A stretch of DNA of 64,000 nucleotides from Sneathiella limimaris (GTDB taxonomy: Bacteria; Pseudomonadota; Alphaproteobacteria; Sneathiellales; Sneathiellaceae), in assembly GCF_012932565.1 (NCBI RefSeq), contig NZ_JABBYJ010000002.1, positions 1 to 64,000 of the forward strand, in the 5' to 3' direction. Of this stretch, positions 48,775 to 57,481 are shown one piece after another (positions within the stretch are counted from its first letter, which is position 1; each line of letters begins with the position of its first letter). Below the pieces are notes generated by a model. The model had not been told where the DNA came from. It searched no databases and was given only the letters and a program-made list of their open reading frames with translations. The position numbers and the translations under genes are program-made.

Positions 48775-50094
48775 ATGACAGCTTTTTCCGACCTACAACT
48801 GGTAGGTCCGCTTTTGCGCGCCCTTGAAAAACAGAATTTTACTGAACCTACAGAAATTCAGAAACGCGCCATCCCTGCCCTTCTAGATGGACAGGACCTG
48901 ATGGGTATTGCCCAAACCGGTGGTGGCAAGACCGCAGCTTTTCTGTTGCCGCTGCTTCAAAGCCTGCAACATGATCGCAAACGGCCAAAACCGAACAAGC
49001 CAACCTCCGTTATTCTGGCCCCAACCCGTGAGCTTGCCTTGCAGATCGGCAAAGAAATCCAGTTGCTGACAAGAGGTATCAAGCTATTTCATACAATTGT
49101 TTATGGTGGTGCACCTTATGGGCCACAGCTGCAACAATTAAAAAGAGGCGTTGATATTCTGGTTGCCACACCAGGCCGCCTGAAAGACCATATGGAACGC
49201 GGAACAGTTGATCTTTCCAACACTCATCATTTTATTTTGGACGAAGCTGACCGAATGCTCGACATGGGCTTCATCGAAGATGTTCAACAAATTGCGGCAA
49301 CCCTCCCTGAAGAGCACCAGACGGTTATGTTCTCGGCAACCATGAGCCCGAACATCCGAAAATTGTCCAATGAACTTCTGACAGAACCAAAATTTGTTGA
49401 AGCCCCTCGCCAGAGCGTTGTCGCTGATACAATTGATCACTCTGTCCTGATGGTCAAAAAAGAGCATAAACAAGATTTGCTTCTTCATTTGATTGGCCTT
49501 GAGCAAATCGAAAAAGTTATTGTTTTTGTGCGCACTAAAGCAACAACAGAAGCCATCGCAAAGCTCATTGAAGAGACATTTGAGCATATTAAGGCAACCG
49601 CGATCCATGGTGACCGACCTCAGCGGGCCCGCGAAAAGACTTTAAGGGCGTTTAAAAACAACCGAATTTCAGTTCTTGTTGCAACTGACGTTGCTGCCCG
49701 AGGAATTGACGTCAAAGACATCACACATGTCATCAACTATGACCTGCCTATGGAAGCCGAAAACTATGTTCATCGGGTCGGTAGAACTGGACGAGCAGGC
49801 GCCAACGGAACTGCTATTTCAATTTGTGAGCCCCGTGAGCGTAACCTTTTGAGAGACATTGAACGCCTCCTCAAACAAAGTGTCCGGATCGATAATGATC
49901 ATCCTTTCCCGGCACCTGAGGAAAAGAAAAAAGCCAAACGCCCCTCATTTAAGCGGCCAGGACAAAAAGGACCGAAAACTCACAAAGCTGGTGAGTTCAA
50001 AAATCAAGGCCCTAAGAAATGGAAACGTAAACCCAGCAAAAATGCTGGTAAACCATCCCCCAAACGGACAGCTCGCCTCAAGAAAGCAAGCTGA
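48775..50094 (+). CDS. DEAD-box ATP-dependent RNA helicase, RhlE-like
   Basis: A 439-residue helicase with the full motif set: Q-motif, AQTGGGKT-like QTGGGKTA (motif I), PTRELA, TPGR, DEAD, SAT, and the C-terminal HRVGRTGR. A basic C-terminal tail (about 375-439, rich in Lys, Pro and Arg) follows, as in RhlE and CsdA-related proteins. It remodels structured RNA, for example in ribosome assembly or at low temperature. The ATG at 48775 follows AGGA; the upstream ATG-frame (48742) overlaps the leader. Confidence 0.92.
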   Translation: MTAFSDLQLVGPLLRALEKQNFTEPTEIQKRAIPALLDGQDLMGIAQTGGGKTAAFLLPLLQSLQHDRKRPKPNKPTSVILAPTRELALQIGKEIQLLTRGIKLFHTIVYGGAPYGPQLQQLKRGVDILVATPGRLKDHMERGTVDLSNTHHFILDEADRMLDMGFIEDVQQIAATLPEEHQTVMFSATMSPNIRKLSNELLTEPKFVEAPRQSVVADTIDHSVLMVKKEHKQDLLLHLIGLEQIEKVIVFVRTKATTEAIAKLIEETFEHIKATAIHGDRPQRAREKTLRAFKNNRISVLVATDVAARGIDVKDITHVINYDLPMEAENYVHRVGRTGRAGANGTAISICEPRERNLLRDIERLLKQSVRIDNDHPFPAPEEKKKAKRPSFKRPGQKGPKTHKAGEFKNQGPKKWKRKPSKNAGKPSPKRTARLKKAS

Positions 50095-50189
50095 GCCTGA
50101 TTGCAGTTGCAATCATAACTTGAAACAGCTGACCTAGTTTGTAGACTGATTTTTCAGATCTTCAGACAGGTCAGCGATCAGGCGCATAC

Positions 50190-50597
50190 ATGCATATCTC
50201 TCCAGCGATACAAAACCCGGATGTCAGAGACGTTTTTTCTGCGCTTCCAAAAGCTGCACAAGCCCATCTCGCCACTCTGCGCAACGTTATTTTTGATTTT
50301 TCATCAAACTCACAGCAAGTCGGAAAAATCGAGGAATGCCTTAAATGGGGACAAATCAGCTTTGTCCCGTACGCGCCAAAAAGTGGCACAACCATTCGTT
50401 TTGACTATGATGGAACAGCAGATAGGCTCGGGCTACTAGTCCATTGCCAAACTCGTCTTATTGATGACTTCCGTCACGAATTTCCGAACGCGTTTGAATA
50501 TGAGAAAAATCGGGGGCTTTGGTTCTCATGCAAGGAAAAGTTGGATCTGGATCTTCTCAAGAGTTTTATTTTTCGGGCACTAACCTATCACCTATAA
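50190..50597 (+). CDS. DUF1801 domain-containing protein
   Basis: A 135-residue protein resembling the DUF1801 (YdhG-like) fold: VFSALPKAAQAHLATLRN at the start, then EECLKWGQISF and a hydrophobic C-terminal strand-helix. The family has no assigned biochemical role; some members are linked to iron-cluster proteins. It lies 95 bases after the helicase on the same strand and converges with the sigma factor. Confidence 0.75.
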   Translation: MHISPAIQNPDVRDVFSALPKAAQAHLATLRNVIFDFSSNSQQVGKIEECLKWGQISFVPYAPKSGTTIRFDYDGTADRLGLLVHCQTRLIDDFRHEFPNAFEYEKNRGLWFSCKEKLDLDLLKSFIFRALTYHL

Positions 50598-50624
50598 ACC
50601 TGATAATATTTGGTAAGGCCCTTA

Positions 50625-51275
50625 TTATTTCTGCTGTAAAAACGCTAAATCCCTCCGCAAAATCGCCCGTGCCTGCTGTACCCGTTTACGGGCATTGTCA
50701 TTTGATATATCAAGACGCCTTGCAATTTCATCGTAAGTCTCCTCTTGTACCAGTCTCATAATCAGAGGGCCTTTCAACTTCTCTGGAAGCTGCTCAATTT
50801 TAGAGCGCAATATTCTTCCAAGCTCCTGATTGAGCAAATGCCCCTCCGGTGTACCCGCATCAAGCGTGATTACGGCTTCGCTAATTTCTCTGATTTCTTT
50901 TAGCTTATCTCCCAATTGCACCCGACGACGATTAGAGCGATGACGATCGATACATATATTGTGGAGTAATCGTGCGAACCAAGCGCGTTGATTATTTATG
51001 TTCTTTTCATGAATTTTGTACTTTTCCAATGCCCTGATCGTCGCATCGCTTAAAGCATCCTCGACTTCCATTGCGCTGATATTCATCCAGAGCATGCTAA
51101 GGCGTTTTAGATATTCACGATGCTCATTCCAGGCAAGCCAGAACCGCTCCTCAACTCCTTTCTCTCTCCTCGCACTTATTGGAGATTTACGAACTTCTAG
51201 AGTTTGCGCCTTTTTTATCTCACTCGGCATGGATCCAGCAGATGAAACCTGAGGCTGTACAGATGATCGCGGCAA
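50625..51275 (-). CDS. ECF-type RNA polymerase sigma factor divergent from the R-body locus
   Basis: A 216-residue sigma-70 family factor with region 2 (VEDALSDATIRALEKY and the WFARLLHNICIDRHR helix) and region 4 (YDEIARRLDISNDNARKRVQQAR). The N terminus of about 40 residues is poorly conserved, basic and may be flexible. The TTG start at 51275 has AAGGAG seven bases upstream, better than any ATG. It is divergent from the reb genes with two copies of a palindrome between. ECF or related sigma factors are known next to R-body loci in other proteobacteria, so it probably drives reb expression. Confidence 0.82.
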   Translation of the reverse strand: MPRSSVQPQVSSAGSMPSEIKKAQTLEVRKSPISARREKGVEERFWLAWNEHREYLKRLSMLWMNISAMEVEDALSDATIRALEKYKIHEKNINNQRAWFARLLHNICIDRHRSNRRRVQLGDKLKEIREISEAVITLDAGTPEGHLLNQELGRILRSKIEQLPEKLKGPLIMRLVQEETYDEIARRLDISNDNARKRVQQARAILRRDLAFLQQK

Positions 51276-51298
51276 AGCCCTTCTCCTTCAATTGTTAT

Positions 51299-51313
51299 GC
51301 ACTTTTAAAGTGC
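51299..51313. promoter_or_regulatory. Palindrome 1 in the sigma/reb control region
   Basis: GCACTTTTAAAGTGC is a perfect 7-1-7 palindrome lying 24 bases before the sigma factor start. The sequence CACTTTTAAAGTGCTTTT (51300-51317) recurs exactly 52 bases to the right. The spacing equals five helical turns, so both copies face the same side of the DNA. Confidence 0.7.
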
Positions 51314-51351
51314 TTTTCTTAGATCAGGAACTAGACTTAGGTTGCATTATA

Positions 51352-51364
51352 CACTTTTAAAGTG
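51352..51364. promoter_or_regulatory. Palindrome 2 in the sigma/reb control region
   Basis: CACTTTTAAAGTG is the second copy, with the same trailing GCTTTT. It is about 155 bases upstream of the first reb gene. Two identical sites between divergent genes suggest cooperative binding of a regulator that controls both the sigma factor and the R-body genes. Confidence 0.7.
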
Positions 51365-51518
51365 CTTTTTTATTTATATTTTCATCTTTTTGGAGAAAAT
51401 ACGATTTATTTTTAGATTTAAAAATTACTCACAATATAGAAGCAATAAAAATTCATAAATCTTAGTAATACCCCGTCTCTTAAAGTAATAAATATTTTAA
51501 TATTAAGGACAAAATCTA

Positions 51519-51911
51519 ATGACAGATAAAAAATCAGGCGAATACTATGATCGAGTTACAGAATCCGTAGTAAAAGTAAATGAAATTGTTTTAGGTAGTG
51601 CCGCATCTACTGCGATGGCCACGATGTACATCACGATGGCACAAGCTGCCGGCATTAGCAGCCTGGGGACTGTCTCCACTCAACAGAACCGAAATATACT
51701 GGGAACAGCCACAATTGCTGCTGGTACAGGCAATCTGTTATGGAGCGGTATGAACGACCAAGTTGCGGAGCTCACTATTTCAGAAAGATTGAAGAATTGG
51801 GAAACAATGCTGTCTGTCTCTGAAGGCAATGATGGATCTAGTAAGGACGCTCAAGGGTCTGAAGACAATCAGCCAGATCAAAGAGCAGAGGGAGAACCCG
51901 AACGGCGTTAA
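51519..51911 (+). CDS. Reb-family R-body protein (reb1), divergent member
   Basis: The 130-residue protein follows the RebB pattern in its first 85 residues: V..VNEIVLGSAASTAMATMY, then AQAAG and STQQNRN, and a GTGNLL strand. It differs from the five downstream copies in lacking NSQITDA and in having a long acidic-polar tail (about 97-130, rich in Asp, Glu, Ser). There is no cysteine. Reb proteins assemble into the coiled ribbon of R-bodies. The ATG follows AAGGA. It is the first gene of the presumed reb operon. Confidence 0.72.
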   Translation: MTDKKSGEYYDRVTESVVKVNEIVLGSAASTAMATMYITMAQAAGISSLGTVSTQQNRNILGTATIAAGTGNLLWSGMNDQVAELTISERLKNWETMLSVSEGNDGSSKDAQGSEDNQPDQRAEGEPERR

Positions 51912-51958
51912 ACATTCTCGCCCCTTCTTTAGTTTTATATGTAATATACGGAGTTCCA

Positions 51959-52405
51959 ATGGCTGAAAAACCTTCGCCTCCCAAACTCGACAGCCTCTAT
52001 GCAAATGTCGAAGAATCCCCCAACTTTGCCATGGGGTTGCTTTACCAATTCGTCGCCCACTCTTCAGGTCTTGCCTTGGAAAACGCAACGATAAATGCTG
52101 GTATTCTGAATAGTGTGAATACGGCCAACGGAAATGTACTAACGGCCCTCAAAAACGCTGAAGCAGCAGTACTCAGCTCTCAACAAACCACCATCGGAAG
52201 TTCTTACAATTCTCAGACAGCCGCCATTACTGAAGCGATGAACTCCCAGACTACAACAGCGGTAACAGGGTTAAACTCAGTATCCAGCGCAGGTGCAACT
52301 GCCTTAAGTGCCCAGACCAGTCAGGAAATAGCTGGCATAACCGCTGATGCAATTGCGGCCACAGCGGTGGCGATGGATAGTATTGTTAAAAAGATGGGAG
52401 GTTAA
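51959..52405 (+). CDS. Reb-related protein (reb2) with Ser/Thr/Ala-rich C-terminal half
   Basis: A 148-residue protein. The first 50 residues keep the MGLLYQFVAHSSGLALENA helix of Reb proteins, but the rest (60-148) is a low-complexity sequence rich in Ala, Ser, Thr and Gln with repeated NSQT- and SAQT-like elements (SYNSQTAA, MNSQTTTA, LSAQTSQ). There is no cysteine. It could be a structural or accessory R-body component. CGGAG precedes the ATG, and it is cotranscribed with reb1, 47 bases downstream. Confidence 0.65.
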   Translation: MAEKPSPPKLDSLYANVEESPNFAMGLLYQFVAHSSGLALENATINAGILNSVNTANGNVLTALKNAEAAVLSSQQTTIGSSYNSQTAAITEAMNSQTTTAVTGLNSVSSAGATALSAQTSQEIAGITADAIAATAVAMDSIVKKMGG

Positions 52406-52414
52406 TGCAACTCT

Positions 52415-53152
52415 TTAGGTGAGGATGATTGGCTCATCATTGGTAATGATCATTGTATGCTCATACTGAGCAGCAGGAGAGCCATCGAGTGTTAATAACG
52501 TCCAGCCATCACGACCTTCTCGATAAGCACCGATACCAGGTGTTAGAAACGGCTCAATTGTAATCACCAGCCCCTCCTGAAGAACCTCACTGCCGGAACT
52601 TGCAAACCGGTTGTGAACTTCAGGAGGTTCATGAATATTCCGGCCAATACCGTGCCCTACCAGCCCTTCAATGATATTAAAGCCGGCCTGACTTGCCACG
52701 TCTTCGACGGCTTTGCCGATATTATGGATAGGAGATCCAGCTCTTGCAGCTTTGATACCAGCATCCAGGGAGTCTCTCGTTGTTTGGCACAAAACCTGTA
52801 AATCGTTTGATATAGAACCCACTGCAATCGATCGCCCGGAGTCAGCCCAAAAACCGTTTTTCTCTGCGCTGACATCGACATTCACAAGCTGCCCCTCCAG
52901 AAGACGTCTCGAGCCCGGGATACCATGAGCAGCCTCATCATGAACACTTATGCAAGAAAACCCTGGAAAATCATAAGCAAGTTTTGGCGCAGATTTAGCC
53001 CCTGCGTCGCTCAGCATTTGCCCAACCAGTTCATCCAACTCTCGTGTTGTCACGCCTGGCTTGACCAGCTGCTCCACTGTATCCAGAATTTCCTTAATGA
53101 TACCGCCAATTTCCATCAACCCGGAAATTTCAGCATCTGACTTGGCAATCAT
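52415..53152 (-). CDS. map: Type I methionine aminopeptidase
   Basis: A 245-residue M24 metalloprotease with the five metal ligands: Asp in VNVDVSAEK region and WADSGRS, His in VGHGIG, and Glu in TIEPFLTPG and near the C terminus (YEHTM). It removes the initiator Met from new proteins. The antisense gene separates reb1-reb2 from reb3-reb7 and ends ten bases after reb2. It is a housekeeping-type gene in an unusual place; whether it is the cell's only copy cannot be told. Confidence 0.9.
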   Translation of the reverse strand: MIAKSDAEISGLMEIGGIIKEILDTVEQLVKPGVTTRELDELVGQMLSDAGAKSAPKLAYDFPGFSCISVHDEAAHGIPGSRRLLEGQLVNVDVSAEKNGFWADSGRSIAVGSISNDLQVLCQTTRDSLDAGIKAARAGSPIHNIGKAVEDVASQAGFNIIEGLVGHGIGRNIHEPPEVHNRFASSGSEVLQEGLVITIEPFLTPGIGAYREGRDGWTLLTLDGSPAAQYEHTMIITNDEPIILT

Positions 53153-53321
53153 TAGTATCCACTCTCAATTAGCAGTCCATCCTCAACGGCTAGTCCTACC
53201 ATACACCTCACCAAACTACACTCGATTTTGATGCGAGATTTCGCATTCTGGAAAAGAAAATTTCCAACCGAATTTCACACCTGTTCCCAAAGCGGCGTCT
53301 AATCGCTGTCGCAAGGACGAC

Positions 53322-53336
53322 AGAAGATAGTCATCT
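53322..53336 (+). repeat. 15-bp leader repeat, copy 1 (before reb3)
   Basis: AGAAGATAGTCATCT occurs here and exactly again before reb5 at 54091-54105. Both copies are 17-24 bases ahead of a reb start. It contains a short AGAT/ATCT stem. It may be an RNA or DNA control element or a relic of gene duplication. Confidence 0.6.
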
Positions 53337-53359
53337 AAAATCCATGGAGGATCAACTGA

Positions 53360-53707
53360 ATGGCAAATGACACTCCGGTGAACAGCCAGATAACTGACGC
53401 CGTCACACAATCAAATATGACCGCGTTGGGCAATGCGCCCGCTCAATCAATGGCAACCGCCTACCAGTTATTAGCCCAGTCGGTTGGTGTTTCCATGCAG
53501 AATGCTGTCGCAAATCAGCAGAACATGAACACCATTGACAGCGCCATCGTCTCTCAGGGTATCAGCCTACTGTTCAATCTTGACGGGGCTGTAGATGCAC
53601 GCTCAGCCAAGGTCATGCTGGCAGATGACTCAAATGCTGAAGTCCTAGCGACATTGCAGGCAATCATTCAAGAACTGAAAGCCAAAAAAGATGATGAGGA
53701 AAATTAA
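53360..53707 (+). CDS. RebB-family R-body protein (reb3)
   Basis: A 115-residue canonical RebB-type protein: NSQITDAVTQSN (residues 8-19), LGNAPAQSMATAYQ, a SVGVSMQNAVANQQN helix and a TIDSAIVSQG strand, then a short acidic lysine-rich tail. R-bodies are built from these small proteins, which polymerise into sheets that roll up and extend on a pH trigger. No cysteine. The ATG follows GGAGG. It begins the second reb block, downstream of the map promoter region (207 bases). Confidence 0.87.
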   Translation: MANDTPVNSQITDAVTQSNMTALGNAPAQSMATAYQLLAQSVGVSMQNAVANQQNMNTIDSAIVSQGISLLFNLDGAVDARSAKVMLADDSNAEVLATLQAIIQELKAKKDDEEN

Positions 53708-53756
53708 CACATCTCTCATCACTTACACGTCTGTCGCATATGAAAGGAGTACCTAA

Positions 53757-54077
53757 ATGCCCGGCGATACACCCGTAAACTCATAAATCACTGATTCCAT
53801 TACCCAGGCCAATGTCACTAGCCTAGCGGAAGCCCCTGCCGTATCCATGGCCTACACTTATCAAGTGTTTGGTCAGGTTGTTGGCGCCAGCATGCAAAAT
53901 GCCGTATCCAACCAGCAAAGCGCCTCCACTATTGACTTGGCCGTCACCACACAGGGGACAAGTGTTCTTTATAGCTTGTCTTCCGCAACAGCTTCAAAAG
54001 CAACTTCTGAGATTCTTGCAGGTAATCCTGTCGCTGAATCCTTGACTGCTATGCAGGCTGCTGCCAACGCGTTTTAA
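53757..54077 (+). pseudogene. RebB-family gene (reb4) with in-frame TAA at codon 10
   Basis: The ATG at 53757, seven bases after AAGGAG, opens MPGDTPVNS and then a TAA (53784-53786) exactly where every paralogue has Gln in NSQITD. The frame then runs on as ITDSITQANVTSLAEAPA to 54077, 106 codons in all, still closely matching reb3 and reb5 with a normal NPVAESLTAMQA end. This suggests a single CAA-to-TAA change of recent date. A start at the ATG 53847 would miss the first 30 residues and has no ribosome site. Confidence 0.82.
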
Positions 54078-54090
54078 GTTTTTCATCACT

Positions 54091-54105
54091 AGAAGATAGT
54101 CATCT
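54091..54105 (+). repeat. 15-bp leader repeat, copy 2 (before reb5)
   Basis: An identical copy of AGAAGATAGTCATCT seen before reb3 (53322-53336). It is 17 bases before the ATG of reb5 and directly precedes its Shine-Dalgarno. Confidence 0.6.
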
Positions 54106-54121
54106 CTATAAGGAGTAAACC

Positions 54122-54484
54122 ATGGCTGAAAACACATGGATGAACAGTCAGATCACCGATGCGGTGACCCAATCGAATGTTAAGGTATTAGGTGATGCCC
54201 CCGCTGAATCAATGGGCATGCTTTATCAGATGCTTGCACAGAGTACAGGTATGAGCATGCAAAACATGGTCGCTAACCAGCAGCATAAAAACTCTATTGA
54301 TAGTGCTGTGGTAACAGGTGCGGTAACCGTGCTCTATACACTGGATACTGCCACAACAGGAAAAGCCACACAGGAAATTCTGAGTGGCAATCCTGTCGCA
54401 GAGTCAATGGCGTCTCTGAAAGGCGTTCTCTCGGCTTATGAGCGGGACCGCCACGACAACACCCCTAGCTTCACCAACCGGTAG
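54122..54484 (+). CDS. rebB: RebB-family R-body protein (reb5)
   Basis: A 120-residue protein that is the closest here to known RebB: NTWMNSQITDAVTQSN, VKVLGDAPAESMGMLYQ, QNMVANQQHKN, and a LYTLDTATTGKATQEIL tail like that of Caedibacter RebB. It would be the main structural protein. It has strong ribosome site AAGGAG. It is followed by a 111-base gap containing an 11-bp inverted repeat. Confidence 0.9.
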   Translation: MAENTWMNSQITDAVTQSNVKVLGDAPAESMGMLYQMLAQSTGMSMQNMVANQQHKNSIDSAVVTGAVTVLYTLDTATTGKATQEILSGNPVAESMASLKGVLSAYERDRHDNTPSFTNR

Positions 54485-54519
54485 TCTAAACCGACTCCCA
54501 TAAGAAGTCAGGGTCCAAG

Positions 54520-54571
54520 TCTGAACTTCACCGCCGCCCCTTCCCCTTGGTTGCGTGCGATGAAGTTCAGA
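54520..54571 (+). promoter_or_regulatory. Long-loop 11-bp hairpin between reb5 and reb6
   Basis: TCTGAACTTCA and TGAAGTTCAGA form a perfect stem around a 30-base pyrimidine-rich loop. No T-run follows. Inside a polycistronic message such a stem may stabilise the upstream reb5 mRNA or reduce read-through into reb6. Confidence 0.6.
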
Positions 54572-54595
54572 TGACTTTCATTTACGGAGAAGACC

Positions 54596-54961
54596 ATGCC
54601 ATCACCTGGAAACAAATCAGAAAAGATCAGAAGCGTTAACAGTCAAATTACCGATGCGATCACTCAGTCAAACACAATGTTGACGGGAATGGCACCTGCA
54701 CATTCTTTAAGTGCTCTTTATCAGACGCTTTCACAATCGATGGGAACAGCCTTCCAAAATTCCGTTTCGAACCAGCAACATATCAACTCGATCAGTCTGG
54801 CTTCTCTGGCGCAGAATGTTCAGCTTATTTTGCAACCAAAACAGACACAAGCTACCCCACAAACACTTCCCCCTATCATCATTGAGAACTGGAGTTCTGG
54901 TGAAACTCGAAAACGAAAAAGGAAAGTGCGCGCCCGATCCCCCAAAAGCACTTCAGCATGA
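54596..54961 (+). CDS. Reb-family protein (reb6) with basic C-terminal tail
   Basis: The 121-residue protein has the RebB core (VNSQITDAITQSN, LTGMAPAHSLSALYQ, FQNSVSNQQHINS) but replaces the usual second half by a proline-glutamine linker and a very basic end with KRKRKVRARSPK. No other Reb here has such a tail, which could bind nucleic acid or acidic membrane lipids. The ATG follows GGAG. Confidence 0.85.
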   Translation: MPSPGNKSEKIRSVNSQITDAITQSNTMLTGMAPAHSLSALYQTLSQSMGTAFQNSVSNQQHINSISLASLAQNVQLILQPKQTQATPQTLPPIIIENWSSGETRKRKRKVRARSPKSTSA

Positions 54962-55002
54962 TCCTCTGGCTTGATGAGAACGAGACAAGGCAGGAGCTGT
55001 AA

Positions 55003-55329
55003 ATGAGCAAAGAAGATTACGTAAATAGTCAGATAACTGACGCGATCGGTCAAACGAACCTTCAGGTGGTTGGCGAAGCACCCGCCGAAGCTGTTGGTAT
55101 GCTCTACCAACAGATGGCCCATAGCATTGGTCTGGCGCTGCAGAATGTAATATCCCAACAGCAGCATAGTTATTCAATTCACAATGCCATCACGCTCGCC
55201 GCTTCAAGGCAGTTGATTGCTACAGATCCAGTTGCGGCAGCAAAAGCGTCGCAGGCCCTGATCAACGACAGTGGTGTTGCCGAGAATTTGGCTGCAATCC
55301 AGGATGTGGTCAGCAAAATGGGCAAGTGA
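55003..55329 (+). CDS. RebB-family R-body protein (reb7)
   Basis: A 108-residue RebB-type protein: YVNSQITDAIGQTN, VGEAPAEAVGMLYQ, LALQNVISQQQHSYS and an alanine-rich second half ending in DVVSKMGK, which resembles the end of reb2 (SIVKKMGG). The ATG follows AGGAG by six bases. No cysteine. Confidence 0.87.
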   Translation: MSKEDYVNSQITDAIGQTNLQVVGEAPAEAVGMLYQQMAHSIGLALQNVISQQQHSYSIHNAITLAASRQLIATDPVAAAKASQALINDSGVAENLAAIQDVVSKMGK

Positions 55330-55371
55330 ATAGATCCCAATACCCCCCTCAACACAAAGAGTATTTAACAG

Positions 55372-55629
55372 ATGACTTATGGACATTTATCCACAGAGGA
55401 CAGATCCGTAATTTTGGCGGAATTAGAACGTGGAGTTGATATAAAGCGACTGGTTGAACGTTACGATATCTCAAAAGCCACCCTGTATCGCTGGCGAAAA
55501 AAACAGTTACAGAGTGCGAATGAAAAAGCGCAACAATTAAAGAATGTGGCAGAGGAAAATGTTCGACTAAGAAATCTACTGGCTGATGCCGCTCTCGAAA
55601 TACAAGCCTTAAAGGAAAAAATCGGATAA
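55372..55629 (+). CDS. Small helix-turn-helix/coiled-coil protein at the end of the reb cluster
   Basis: An 85-residue protein: an N-terminal HTH (ILAELERGVDIKRLVERYDISKATLYRW is the recognition core, residues 14-41), then a coiled coil (about 44-85). It resembles the OrfA part of IS3-type transposases, but no OrfB or terminal repeats follow, so it is not an insertion sequence. It may be a domesticated DNA-binding regulator of the reb locus; this is inference from position, 42 bases after reb7. Confidence 0.65.
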   Translation: MTYGHLSTEDRSVILAELERGVDIKRLVERYDISKATLYRWRKKQLQSANEKAQQLKNVAEENVRLRNLLADAALEIQALKEKIG

Positions 55630-55687
55630 TTCACGGTGTCACTAATTTCCCGGTTGAACCGACCAAGTAGTTCTGTATAACCGGCAT

Positions 55688-57481
55688 ATGTTGCGTGAAC
55701 CTCATCAAATCCTACAAGATGTATTCGGTTATCCAGAATTTAGAGGTAATCAGGAAGCTGTCATCCACCATGTGATGCAAGGTCGGGATGCATTAGTCCT
55801 GATGCCCACTGGCGGTGGCAAATCGCTCTGTTATCAGATTCCTGCATTGGCAATGGACGGTCTCACAGTCGTCATATCTCCCTTAATCGCACTCATGCAA
55901 AATCAGGTCGAAACCCTGAACGAGCTGGGCATTACCGCCGCAGCATATAACTCTGGCACCACACCAGAACACAGAGCCCAGATACACCAAGACCTGAAAG
56001 AGAAACGTCTTAAACTGTTGTATCTTGCGCCGGAGAGATTCTCAGCCCCTGGTTTTATCGAATTTCTCAAAACCCTTCACATAAACCTGTTTGCCATAGA
56101 TGAGGCGCACTGTATTTCCCAGTGGGGACATGATTTCAGACCAGAATACCTGAAGCTAAACAAACTTCATGATCTATTCCCGCATATCCCAAGACTCGCA
56201 CTTACAGCGACAGCTGATCAGCAAACAGAAAAAGATATAATCGATCGTCTGAATCTCGGATATGGAACCGTTTTCAGAGCAAGCTTTGACCGACCCAACA
56301 TCCAATATCGGATTACTGCAAAACAAAATGGCGTGCGCCAGTTAGTGGATTTTATTCAGTCTGAACACCCTAACGACTCTGGCATTATATATTGCATGTC
56401 CCGCAAGAAAACCGAGTCGATCGCTGAAAAACTAAAGGAAAAAGGGTTTGATGCACTTCCCTATCATGCTGGCCTGAGTCCTGAACTGCGTGAGAAACAC
56501 CAGCAGGCCTTTATCAAATCTGAAAAGGTGATCATGGTCGCTACGATTGCCTTTGGTATGGGAATTGATAAACCTGATGTGCGCTTTGTTGCTCATCTCG
56601 ATCTCCCCAAAAATTTAGAAGCCTATTATCAAGAAACGGGCCGCGCAGGCCGTGACGGCCTTCCAGCGACAGCTTGGCTTGCCTTTGGAACACAGGATAT
56701 CTTTAAAGTCCGAAACTTGATGAACTTGAACCAACCCCAAGACCAGCTTCAAGCAGAGCGACACAAATTCAATGCCTTATTAAGTTACTGCGAGGCACTG
56801 GATTGCCGTAGGATCCATCTACTTTCCTATTTTGGTGAACAATCAGAAGCTTGCGGAAATTGTGATAACTGTCTGTCACCACCTGAGACCGAAGATACTA
56901 CCGAAGCAGCTCAGCAGGCTTTGTCAGTAATCTATAGAACTGGCCAGCTTTTTGGCGTTACTCATTTGATTGAAGTACTACTTGGAAATGAGACCGACAA
57001 AATCAAAGAATTCGACCACGATAAATTAGCAGTTTTTGGGGTTGGCAAAGATAAAAGCCGACAGCAATGGCAGGCTCTTTTTCGTCAACTTGTTTCTAAG
57101 GACTTTGTCGCTCAAGACACAGATGGATACGGTGGATTAAGTTTAAATGAAAACTGCCGCTCTTTGCTTCGTGGCGAAGAAAAGTTTTTCAGTCGAAAGC
57201 AACCCTATCTGAAACAAAGCGGCGGAAAAGATCGAAAGCAGGTTCAATTCAAGTCAGACGCGGATCAGTCACTCTTTGAAAACCTGAGGGCGCTTAGAGG
57301 GCGTCTCGCTAAAGCAGCAGATATCCCCCCTTATATCATTTTCCATGACAAAACGCTGCTTGAGCTTGTGTTCCAGCGGCCTCAAAATTTACAGCAGCTG
57401 TCACGAATTCCCGGCATCGGAAAAAACAAACAGGAAAAATATGGTGAGGTGTTCCTCGAGTTATTAACAAATGAAGGCTAA
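55688..57481 (+). CDS. recQ: ATP-dependent DNA helicase RecQ
   Basis: A 597-residue RecQ with motif I MPTGGGKSLCYQIPA (about 38-52), DEAH box in AIDEAHC, HDFRPEY, QETGRAGRDG motif VI, a zinc-binding region with CRRIHLLSYFG and CGNCDNC, and an HRDC-like C-terminal domain (about 520-590). It unwinds recombination and replication intermediates. It lies 59 bases downstream of the small HTH gene and converges on the TetR gene. Confidence 0.95.
   Translation: MLREPHQILQDVFGYPEFRGNQEAVIHHVMQGRDALVLMPTGGGKSLCYQIPALAMDGLTVVISPLIALMQNQVETLNELGITAAAYNSGTTPEHRAQIHQDLKEKRLKLLYLAPERFSAPGFIEFLKTLHINLFAIDEAHCISQWGHDFRPEYLKLNKLHDLFPHIPRLALTATADQQTEKDIIDRLNLGYGTVFRASFDRPNIQYRITAKQNGVRQLVDFIQSEHPNDSGIIYCMSRKKTESIAEKLKEKGFDALPYHAGLSPELREKHQQAFIKSEKVIMVATIAFGMGIDKPDVRFVAHLDLPKNLEAYYQETGRAGRDGLPATAWLAFGTQDIFKVRNLMNLNQPQDQLQAERHKFNALLSYCEALDCRRIHLLSYFGEQSEACGNCDNCLSPPETEDTTEAAQQALSVIYRTGQLFGVTHLIEVLLGNETDKIKEFDHDKLAVFGVGKDKSRQQWQALFRQLVSKDFVAQDTDGYGGLSLNENCRSLLRGEEKFFSRKQPYLKQSGGKDRKQVQFKSDADQSLFENLRALRGRLAKAADIPPYIIFHDKTLLELVFQRPQNLQQLSRIPGIGKNKQEKYGEVFLELLTNEG

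Follow-up and report, generated by a model that had tools for sequence, protein, structure and literature searches.

A reb (R-body) locus in Sneathiella limimaris with a linked sigma factor, a shared promoter motif and a covarying hairpin

Genes and features of the reb locus

R-bodies (refractile bodies) are large, switchable protein machines: ribbons of protein, wound into a coil, which certain bacteria are able to fire open. We analysed a 64,000-nucleotide stretch of the genome of Sneathiella limimaris (assembly GCF_012932565.1, contig NZ_JABBYJ010000002.1, positions 1 to 64,000 of the forward strand; hereafter the window). The window opens contig 2 of the assembly; the whole genome measures 3.66 Mb, and the genus is marine. 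At positions 50,625 to 55,629 it carries a cluster of reb genes in the order divergent sigma factor gene, reb1, reb2, a methionine aminopeptidase gene on the minus strand, reb3 to reb7 and a gene for a helix-turn-helix (HTH) protein. The cluster is flanked by a small DUF1801-like open reading frame (ORF) on one side and a recQ-like helicase ORF on the other, both named by eye. The features are as follows.

50625..51275, minus strand: sigma factor of the extracytoplasmic function (ECF) type, 216 amino acids (Pfam Sigma70_r4_2, 40.7 bits; Sigma70_r2, 28.9 bits)
51300..51312, no strand: palindrome copy 1, CACTTTTAAAGTG, one of two genomic copies
51352..51364, no strand: palindrome copy 2, CACTTTTAAAGTG, judged by eye from its flanks to be the copy common to relatives
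51519..51911, plus strand: reb1, divergent Reb with an acidic tail (RebB, 39.5 bits; monophyletic orthogroup)
51959..52405, plus strand: reb2, divergent Reb without the N-terminal motif and with a long Ala/Ser/Thr-rich C-terminal half (RebB, 14.4 bits for the ORF and 26.9 bits when the whole genome was scanned)
52415..53152, minus strand: second type I methionine aminopeptidase (TIGR00500, 249.4 bits)
53274..53300, plus strand: predicted promoter P2, TTCACA-N16-CGTCT, upstream of reb3 (motif conservation)
53360..53707, plus strand: reb3 (RebB, 83.4 bits)
53758..54077, plus strand: reb4, with an in-frame TAA at codon 10 and the rest open (RebB, 40.8 bits for the part after the stop)
54122..54484, plus strand: reb5 (RebB, 89.5 bits; 77-92% identity to Sneathiella orthologues)
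54519..54572, plus strand: stem-loop between reb5 and reb6, with covarying arms at 54519-54530 and 54561-54572 (covariation and folding)
54596..54961, plus strand: reb6, with a basic tail (RebB, 70.4 bits)
55003..55329, plus strand: reb7 (RebB, 71.8 bits)
55372..55629, plus strand: 85-amino-acid HTH protein that resembles IS3 OrfA and is not followed by an OrfB (HTH_Tnp_1, 38.3 bits)

By family membership this is a real R-body (reb) locus, as a preliminary description made from the sequence had proposed, with seven reb ORFs at the positions listed. With the RebB profile (Pfam PF11747, cut-off 24 bits), six of the seven ORFs or ORF parts (reb1, reb3, reb5, reb6, reb7 and the open part of reb4) scored above the cut-off, so that at least three RebB-family genes are clustered here. 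The match to reb2 was borderline, falling below the cut-off as an ORF and above it in a whole-genome scan in which all seven reb places passed. The profile matches to reb3, reb5, reb6 and reb7 cover 63-67 of its 68 positions, and these four proteins contain both the QITD and the QQ motifs described for Reb proteins (PMC13430693; comparisons with published work, here and below, draw on parts of the cited texts). The preliminary description had counted five proteins with the RebB signature; these four were confirmed, while the fifth, reb4, is interrupted at codon 10 and retains the later Reb motif downstream of its stop. Its view of reb1 and reb2 as divergent relatives agreed with our results, QITD being missing from both, and in Oceanibacterium the reb2 orthologue retains a recognisable Reb N-terminus that has been lost in Sneathiella reb2, an argument for counting reb2 as a genuine, if derived, Reb. 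The sigma factor, the OrfA-like HTH protein and the palindromes were likewise recovered, and two features had been overlooked: the reb4 stop and the aminopeptidase gene between reb2 and reb3. A search of solved structures with reb5 returned three chance-like matches (best E 0.005, residues 74-114).

The RebB family is nearly fixed in the genus and sparse beyond it. We found RebB matches in 22 of the 24 Sneathiella genomes (21 of the 23 others and this one), and the two without a match are 65-66% complete. In the same search the family was also present in the sole other genome of this bacterial family that was searched, Oceanibacterium hippocampi, and in 2 of 36 further genomes; in a sample of the class it occurred in 15 of 385 genomes, five from this genus and ten others, one of the ten being a 16-position fragment. 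The order sigma factor, reb1 to reb7, HTH gene and then recQ was kept in 17 Sneathiella stretches as far as the contigs reach, except that one locus (L049, genome G022) has no HTH gene and additional DNA precedes recQ in two others (L044, L050). Similar clusters thus do occur elsewhere, in Sneathiella relatives, and the self-contained module of the preliminary description is conserved in the genus as a unit. Trees of Reb and RecQ from 15 genomes shared 9 of 12 splits, with a Mantel r of 0.89 that was reached in 0 of 2000 permutations. Joint transfer of the reb cluster with the linked recQ may also be compatible with the matching trees. Among Sneathiella, reb5 orthologues share 77-92% identity, a higher conservation than the 57-64% of RecQ.

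Promoter motif, sigma factor and palindrome

An orthologue of the sigma factor adjoins the reb genes in all 17 Sneathiella stretches and also in Oceanibacterium and Skermanella. Alignment of the regions upstream of reb3 from 18 Sneathiella loci revealed TCACA-N16-CGTC in every one, the leading TG of ECF41-type promoters (TGTCACA) not being constant at these P2 sites. A longer form, TCACANNNTCTCAN8CGTCT, was found with zero mismatches in 19 of the 24 Sneathiella genomes, once in each and always at P2. A twentieth genome has the long form at P2 with one mismatch, and three more one-mismatch sites lie elsewhere (reversed control, two); the P2 copy of the present genome deviates in the TCTCA part.

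The motif was also found before reb genes outside the genus. From 80 loci that are the best matches to reb5, and so not a random sample, we set aside the 17 of the Sneathiella group (L091-L105, L107, L108) and scanned the remaining 63. Upstream of their 254 reb starts, TCACA-N15/16-CGTC matched 22 times at a spacing of 15 and four times at 16, as compared with 0-1 at each of 16 other spacings (8 to 25) and none on the opposite strand at spacings of 15 and 16. A scrambled motif gave four matches in all, none at 15 or 16, and the motif shifted by one base gave three at spacing 15, as overlap would give. Across the whole outside loci the counts were 33 (N15) and 23 (N16) against a mean of 3.9 (standard deviation 2.3, maximum 11) at 24 other spacings. 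The matches before reb genes fall in 18 of the 63 loci, which from record titles we take to be Alpha- and Betaproteobacteria, Myxococcota and one metagenome-assembled genome labelled Verrucomicrobia.

Two observations link the motif to the sigma factor. The four outside loci with the most similar sigma factors (above 110 bits; L106, L112, L124, L136) all have it before a reb gene, the copy in L124 sitting inside an open frame upstream of the likely reb start. Moreover, in Oceanibacterium, Skermanella, Oleisolibacter and Myxococcus a copy occurs on the coding strand of the sigma gene, within its open frame or ahead of it and 3 to about 350 bases from the likely start, as expected of a sigma factor that regulates its own gene. 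We suggest from these positions that TCACA-N15/16-CGTC may be the target of the reb-linked sigma factor.

That the motif is instead read by another, general ECF sigma factor is, in our judgement, rather unlikely. ECF41 sigma factors do read a similar sequence, TGTCACA-N16-CGTC (PMC3426412), and the motif precedes a reb gene in 6 of the 30 loci that have no sigma match in the DNA fetched. Its presence at the sigma gene in four loci speaks for the linked factor, as does a count across the 24 genomes, where KTCACA-N16-CGTCT matched 89 sites, 21 of them P2; the 68 non-P2 sites compare with 54 for the reversed control, which argues against a large further regulon. With so modest an excess, a wider regulon of the reb-linked sigma factor was likewise set aside. 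In a separate observation, we counted six TCACA-N15/16-CGTC sites within or close to the reb cluster of Myxococcus sp. (L136, 5235-10431); the three that do not precede a reb or sigma gene mark candidate R-body partner genes.

The divergence between the sigma gene and reb1 carries a different element. The 13-bp palindrome CACTTTTAAAGTG occurs twice in the 3.66-Mb genome, both times in this region, and its reversed control not at all. It was matched at 11-13 of 13 positions in 17 of the 18 Sneathiella sigma/reb1 regions, this one counted, where shuffled sequences reached maxima of 10-11. Across the genus it was found without mismatch 18 times, including 12 times at the reb locus, and its reversed control 10 times. 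The exception among the 18 regions is L049 (10 of 13, equal to its shuffled maximum), which comes from the only genome without the HTH gene among the 17 that are at least 90% complete, a single event. The sigma/reb1 region of Oceanibacterium has no copy (8 of 13). One Sneathiella clade (L042, L037, L038, L048) shares a second element, about ATACGNGTGTATG, which was seen by eye in the stretch separating the palindrome from reb1.

The HTH gene (HTH_Tnp_1 cut-off 24.1 bits) is reb-linked in 20 of the 24 Sneathiella genomes and likewise in Oceanibacterium and Skermanella. In the window it is followed by the recQ-like helicase ORF, and no rve-type OrfB adjoins it. The genus contains 23 further matches away from reb genes, and each of the four that we examined lies beside an IS3 OrfB-like ORF (three with rve, one with HTH_21). 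Lacking the OrfB that accompanies these paralogues, the reb-linked protein looks like a domesticated IS3 OrfA, and it is probably a regulator.

Reb subunits and the reb5-reb6 hairpin

To compare the subunits across the genus, we placed 125 Reb proteins in a FastTree phylogeny, from which three rows were left out. Each of the seven classes was monophyletic (support 0.79 to 0.998). As judged by the net charge of the last 35 residues, 17 of 18 reb1 orthologues have an acidic tail and 14 of 16 reb6 orthologues a basic one, while reb3 is mixed and reb5 near neutral, so that distinct tail types are only a partly conserved trait. The preliminary description had proposed a composite ribbon built from seven paralogues with three tail types. 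The seven orthogroups fit a ribbon of several subunits, as do the published multi-Reb systems (PMC5527310, PMC8322103), whereas the tail classes are conserved only in part and reb4 is broken. With respect to reb2, we also noted that in Skermanella a long reb2-like protein with repeated Val/Ser/Gly segments (L106, 13634-14455) is encoded upstream of, and divergent from, the sigma gene.

The reb4 stop was seen in none of the relatives examined, among which intact copies exist, and could be read as the sign of a decaying cluster, with R-body function lost from this species and the other genes left as remnants. We consider this improbable. The other six reb genes, the sigma gene and the HTH gene are all open, P2 and the hairpin described below are retained, and downstream of its stop reb4 retains 91% protein identity to the S. 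glossodoripedis copy, much like reb5 with 92%. The stop could also be an assembly error at one base. Even a real loss need not stop ribbon making, since Azorhizobium can do with one or the other of a pair of Reb proteins in addition to two more (PMC5527310). Synonymous sites were saturated, or the ratio of nonsynonymous to synonymous substitution rates was not computable, in most comparisons, giving no date for the stop. With the rest of its frame highly conserved, the interrupted reb4 would be a natural single-subunit loss.

The second type I methionine aminopeptidase (TIGR00500 cut-off 171.35 bits) is present in 11 of the 24 Sneathiella genomes, and in all 11 it lies inside the reb cluster. 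The usual copy was found in 23 of the 24; in the last genome (G006, 84% complete) the reb-linked gene was the only one seen. Among the 80 fetched reb loci the gene occurs in six, all of the Sneathiella group, and in none outside it. A small second residue was found in 117 of 119 Reb starts, which are related and include some approximate reb4 starts, versus 22 of 43 window ORFs of at least 200 amino acids. That the enzyme trims Reb proteins is, on this basis, a fair guess and no more.

The spacer between reb5 and reb6 folds beyond shuffled sequences (mean z -4.46, and below -2 in 15 of 16 Sneathiella loci), while the five other spacers average z near 0, some of the reb3-reb4 rows taking in the first reb4 codons. 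The stem has 13 consensus pairs, 10 of them with changes on both sides, a number that 3 of 500 shuffles reached. There were 50 double-change cells as compared with 17.5 in shuffles (0 of 500 as high) and 5-11 when the arms were slid, and the covariation score of 0.596 was reached by 0 of 500 shuffles. On the RecQ tree, which holds 15 of the 16 rows, the stem pair states change 46 times, pairing losses included. No Rfam family matched positions 50000-56500 even when E values of up to 1 were allowed, and a scan of the window at gathering scores was also negative. Stems of this kind in other operons act as stabilisers of mRNA or as partial terminators, and by analogy this one is most likely a differential stabiliser or partial terminator as well. 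An inverted repeat serving as a DNA site for the HTH protein would have long arms too, and the HTH gene stands in the same operon. The arms vary between clades, however, yet pairing stays, and the genome without an HTH gene (G022/L049) still has the repeat; we therefore give such a DNA site little credence and favour an RNA hairpin.

A model for the locus and its relation to known systems

From these observations we infer the following model. The short, divergent ECF-type sigma factor would read TCACA-N15/16-CGTC before reb3 and thereby switch on the main ribbon genes, reb3 to reb7, together with the HTH gene, while a second promoter region with the locus-specific palindrome would serve the sigma gene and reb1-reb2. 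The Reb proteins would polymerise into a coiled ribbon of several specialised subunits. The reb5-reb6 stem-loop would most likely set subunit ratios by raising the abundance of the genes upstream of it above that of reb6, reb7 and the HTH gene, and the domesticated IS3 OrfA would probably act as a regulator. We put the probability of this overall explanation, a sigma-driven R-body locus with P2, a palindrome, a ratio-setting hairpin and the HTH protein, at roughly 0.8.

Several observations weigh against it. For the motif, the 18 outside loci contain near relatives (three Chromobacterium, two Pannonibacter), such that the matches are not all independent. A reb gene has the exact motif upstream in 12 of the 33 loci with any sigma match, versus the 6 of 30 without one, and the tie of motif to sigma factor, which is by association, is thus of limited strength when all loci are considered. 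In Skermanella and Myxococcus the sigma-gene site ends 3-4 bases before the first possible ATG. No clear copy was found at the Sneathiella sigma/reb1 promoter; the candidates there, rejected here, agree at no more than 8 of 9 positions, a level reached by just three of the 18 regions. For the hairpin, the count of pair types is not above shuffles (281 of 500), L041 breaks several stem pairs, and a candidate counterpart in Oceanibacterium, where stems are present, was not beyond shuffles (z -1.54). In addition, one split supported above 0.9 in each of the Reb and RecQ trees conflicts with the other tree, reb4 is broken in this species, and the regulatory role of the HTH protein is inferred. The AlphaFold model of reb5 is mostly one long helix of low confidence (predicted local distance difference test score 66, predicted template modelling score 0.26), and no report of an R-body in Sneathiella was found in the open-access full-text literature. 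It is very unlikely that the Reb proteins form a short filament or other cytoplasmic structure with an intracellular role in place of an extendable R-body, for although reb1 and reb2 are divergent and presence in nearly all genomes of the genus suggests steady use over an occasional killer trait, reb3, reb5, reb6 and reb7 match nearly the whole RebB profile with both published Reb motifs.

Linked sigma factors at reb loci are already known (PMC3583457; PMC3764935), and an iron-limitation paper (PMC3377617) mentions both ECF sigma factors and R-body/RebB. A close parallel is the reb cluster of Pseudomonas aeruginosa PA14, which comprises rebP1P2, rapA, rebD, fecI2 and rcgA and in which expression of rebP1 requires the sigma factor FecI2 (PMC8322103). 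Both systems combine RebB-family genes with a linked sigma factor, and several proteins of the PA14 cluster were found in the ribbon fraction; Sneathiella differs in having seven reb genes in a fixed order and the IS3 OrfA-like HTH gene. A FecI2 logo has been published (PMC4362757, Fig. 2), and the motif may therefore be partly in print for Pseudomonas, although neither of the two Pseudomonas loci inspected here has it in exact form (8 of 9 positions in P. indica). ECF41 sigma factors, similar in promoter, differ in that the Sneathiella protein has no match to a C-terminal regulatory domain, only regions 2 and 4 exceeding the Pfam cut-off.

The Group 2 synteny of Raymann includes two proteins of 205-220 amino acids near reb, HP2.1 and HP2.2, the sigma factor HP2.3 and a cyclic-nucleotide regulator, HP2.4 (PMC3583457). 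It shares with Sneathiella a sigma factor near reb, but no cyclic-nucleotide-binding domain was found among the ten Sneathiella locus proteins scanned, and the Sneathiella array ends in the OrfA-like HTH gene, the word transposase being absent from the text of PMC3583457. The Azorhizobium caulinodans operon, with four reb genes, RebR and PraR (PMC5527310), is similar in requiring several Reb proteins together and in having palindromic promoter operators; the regulators and operator sequences are different, and its text does not contain the term sigma factor. Within the published Reb groups 1-6 and S1-S4 (PMC13430693), reb3 to reb7 have features of primary Reb proteins and reb1 and reb2 look secondary. 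Sneathiella, promoter, hairpin and transposase are absent from the main texts of the two surveys (PMC3583457, PMC13430693), and in the parts of the open-access R-body literature consulted we did not find the motif at reb genes, a covarying hairpin, a domesticated OrfA HTH protein or a palindrome confined to the locus.

A broader and doubtful extension, offered tentatively, is that reb genes cross at least three phyla with a private code, a short ECF sigma factor and TCACA-N15/16-CGTC, to which the Sneathiellaceae would add an OrfA-bound palindrome switch, a ratio hairpin and, in one clade, a Reb-trimming aminopeptidase. If true, a shared promoter code would provide a cheap direct test of reb activity in several phyla and a way to find partner genes under the same promoter. 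The R-bodies of the cited systems harm eukaryotic hosts or prey, and it is poorly known when most bacteria make R-bodies, how subunit ratios arise and what use free-living species have for them. A genus with near-fixed reb genes that track RecQ is a natural system for studying the purpose of R-bodies outside symbiosis. Collectively, comparison among these relatives points to how reb clusters may be switched on and their parts kept in proportion.

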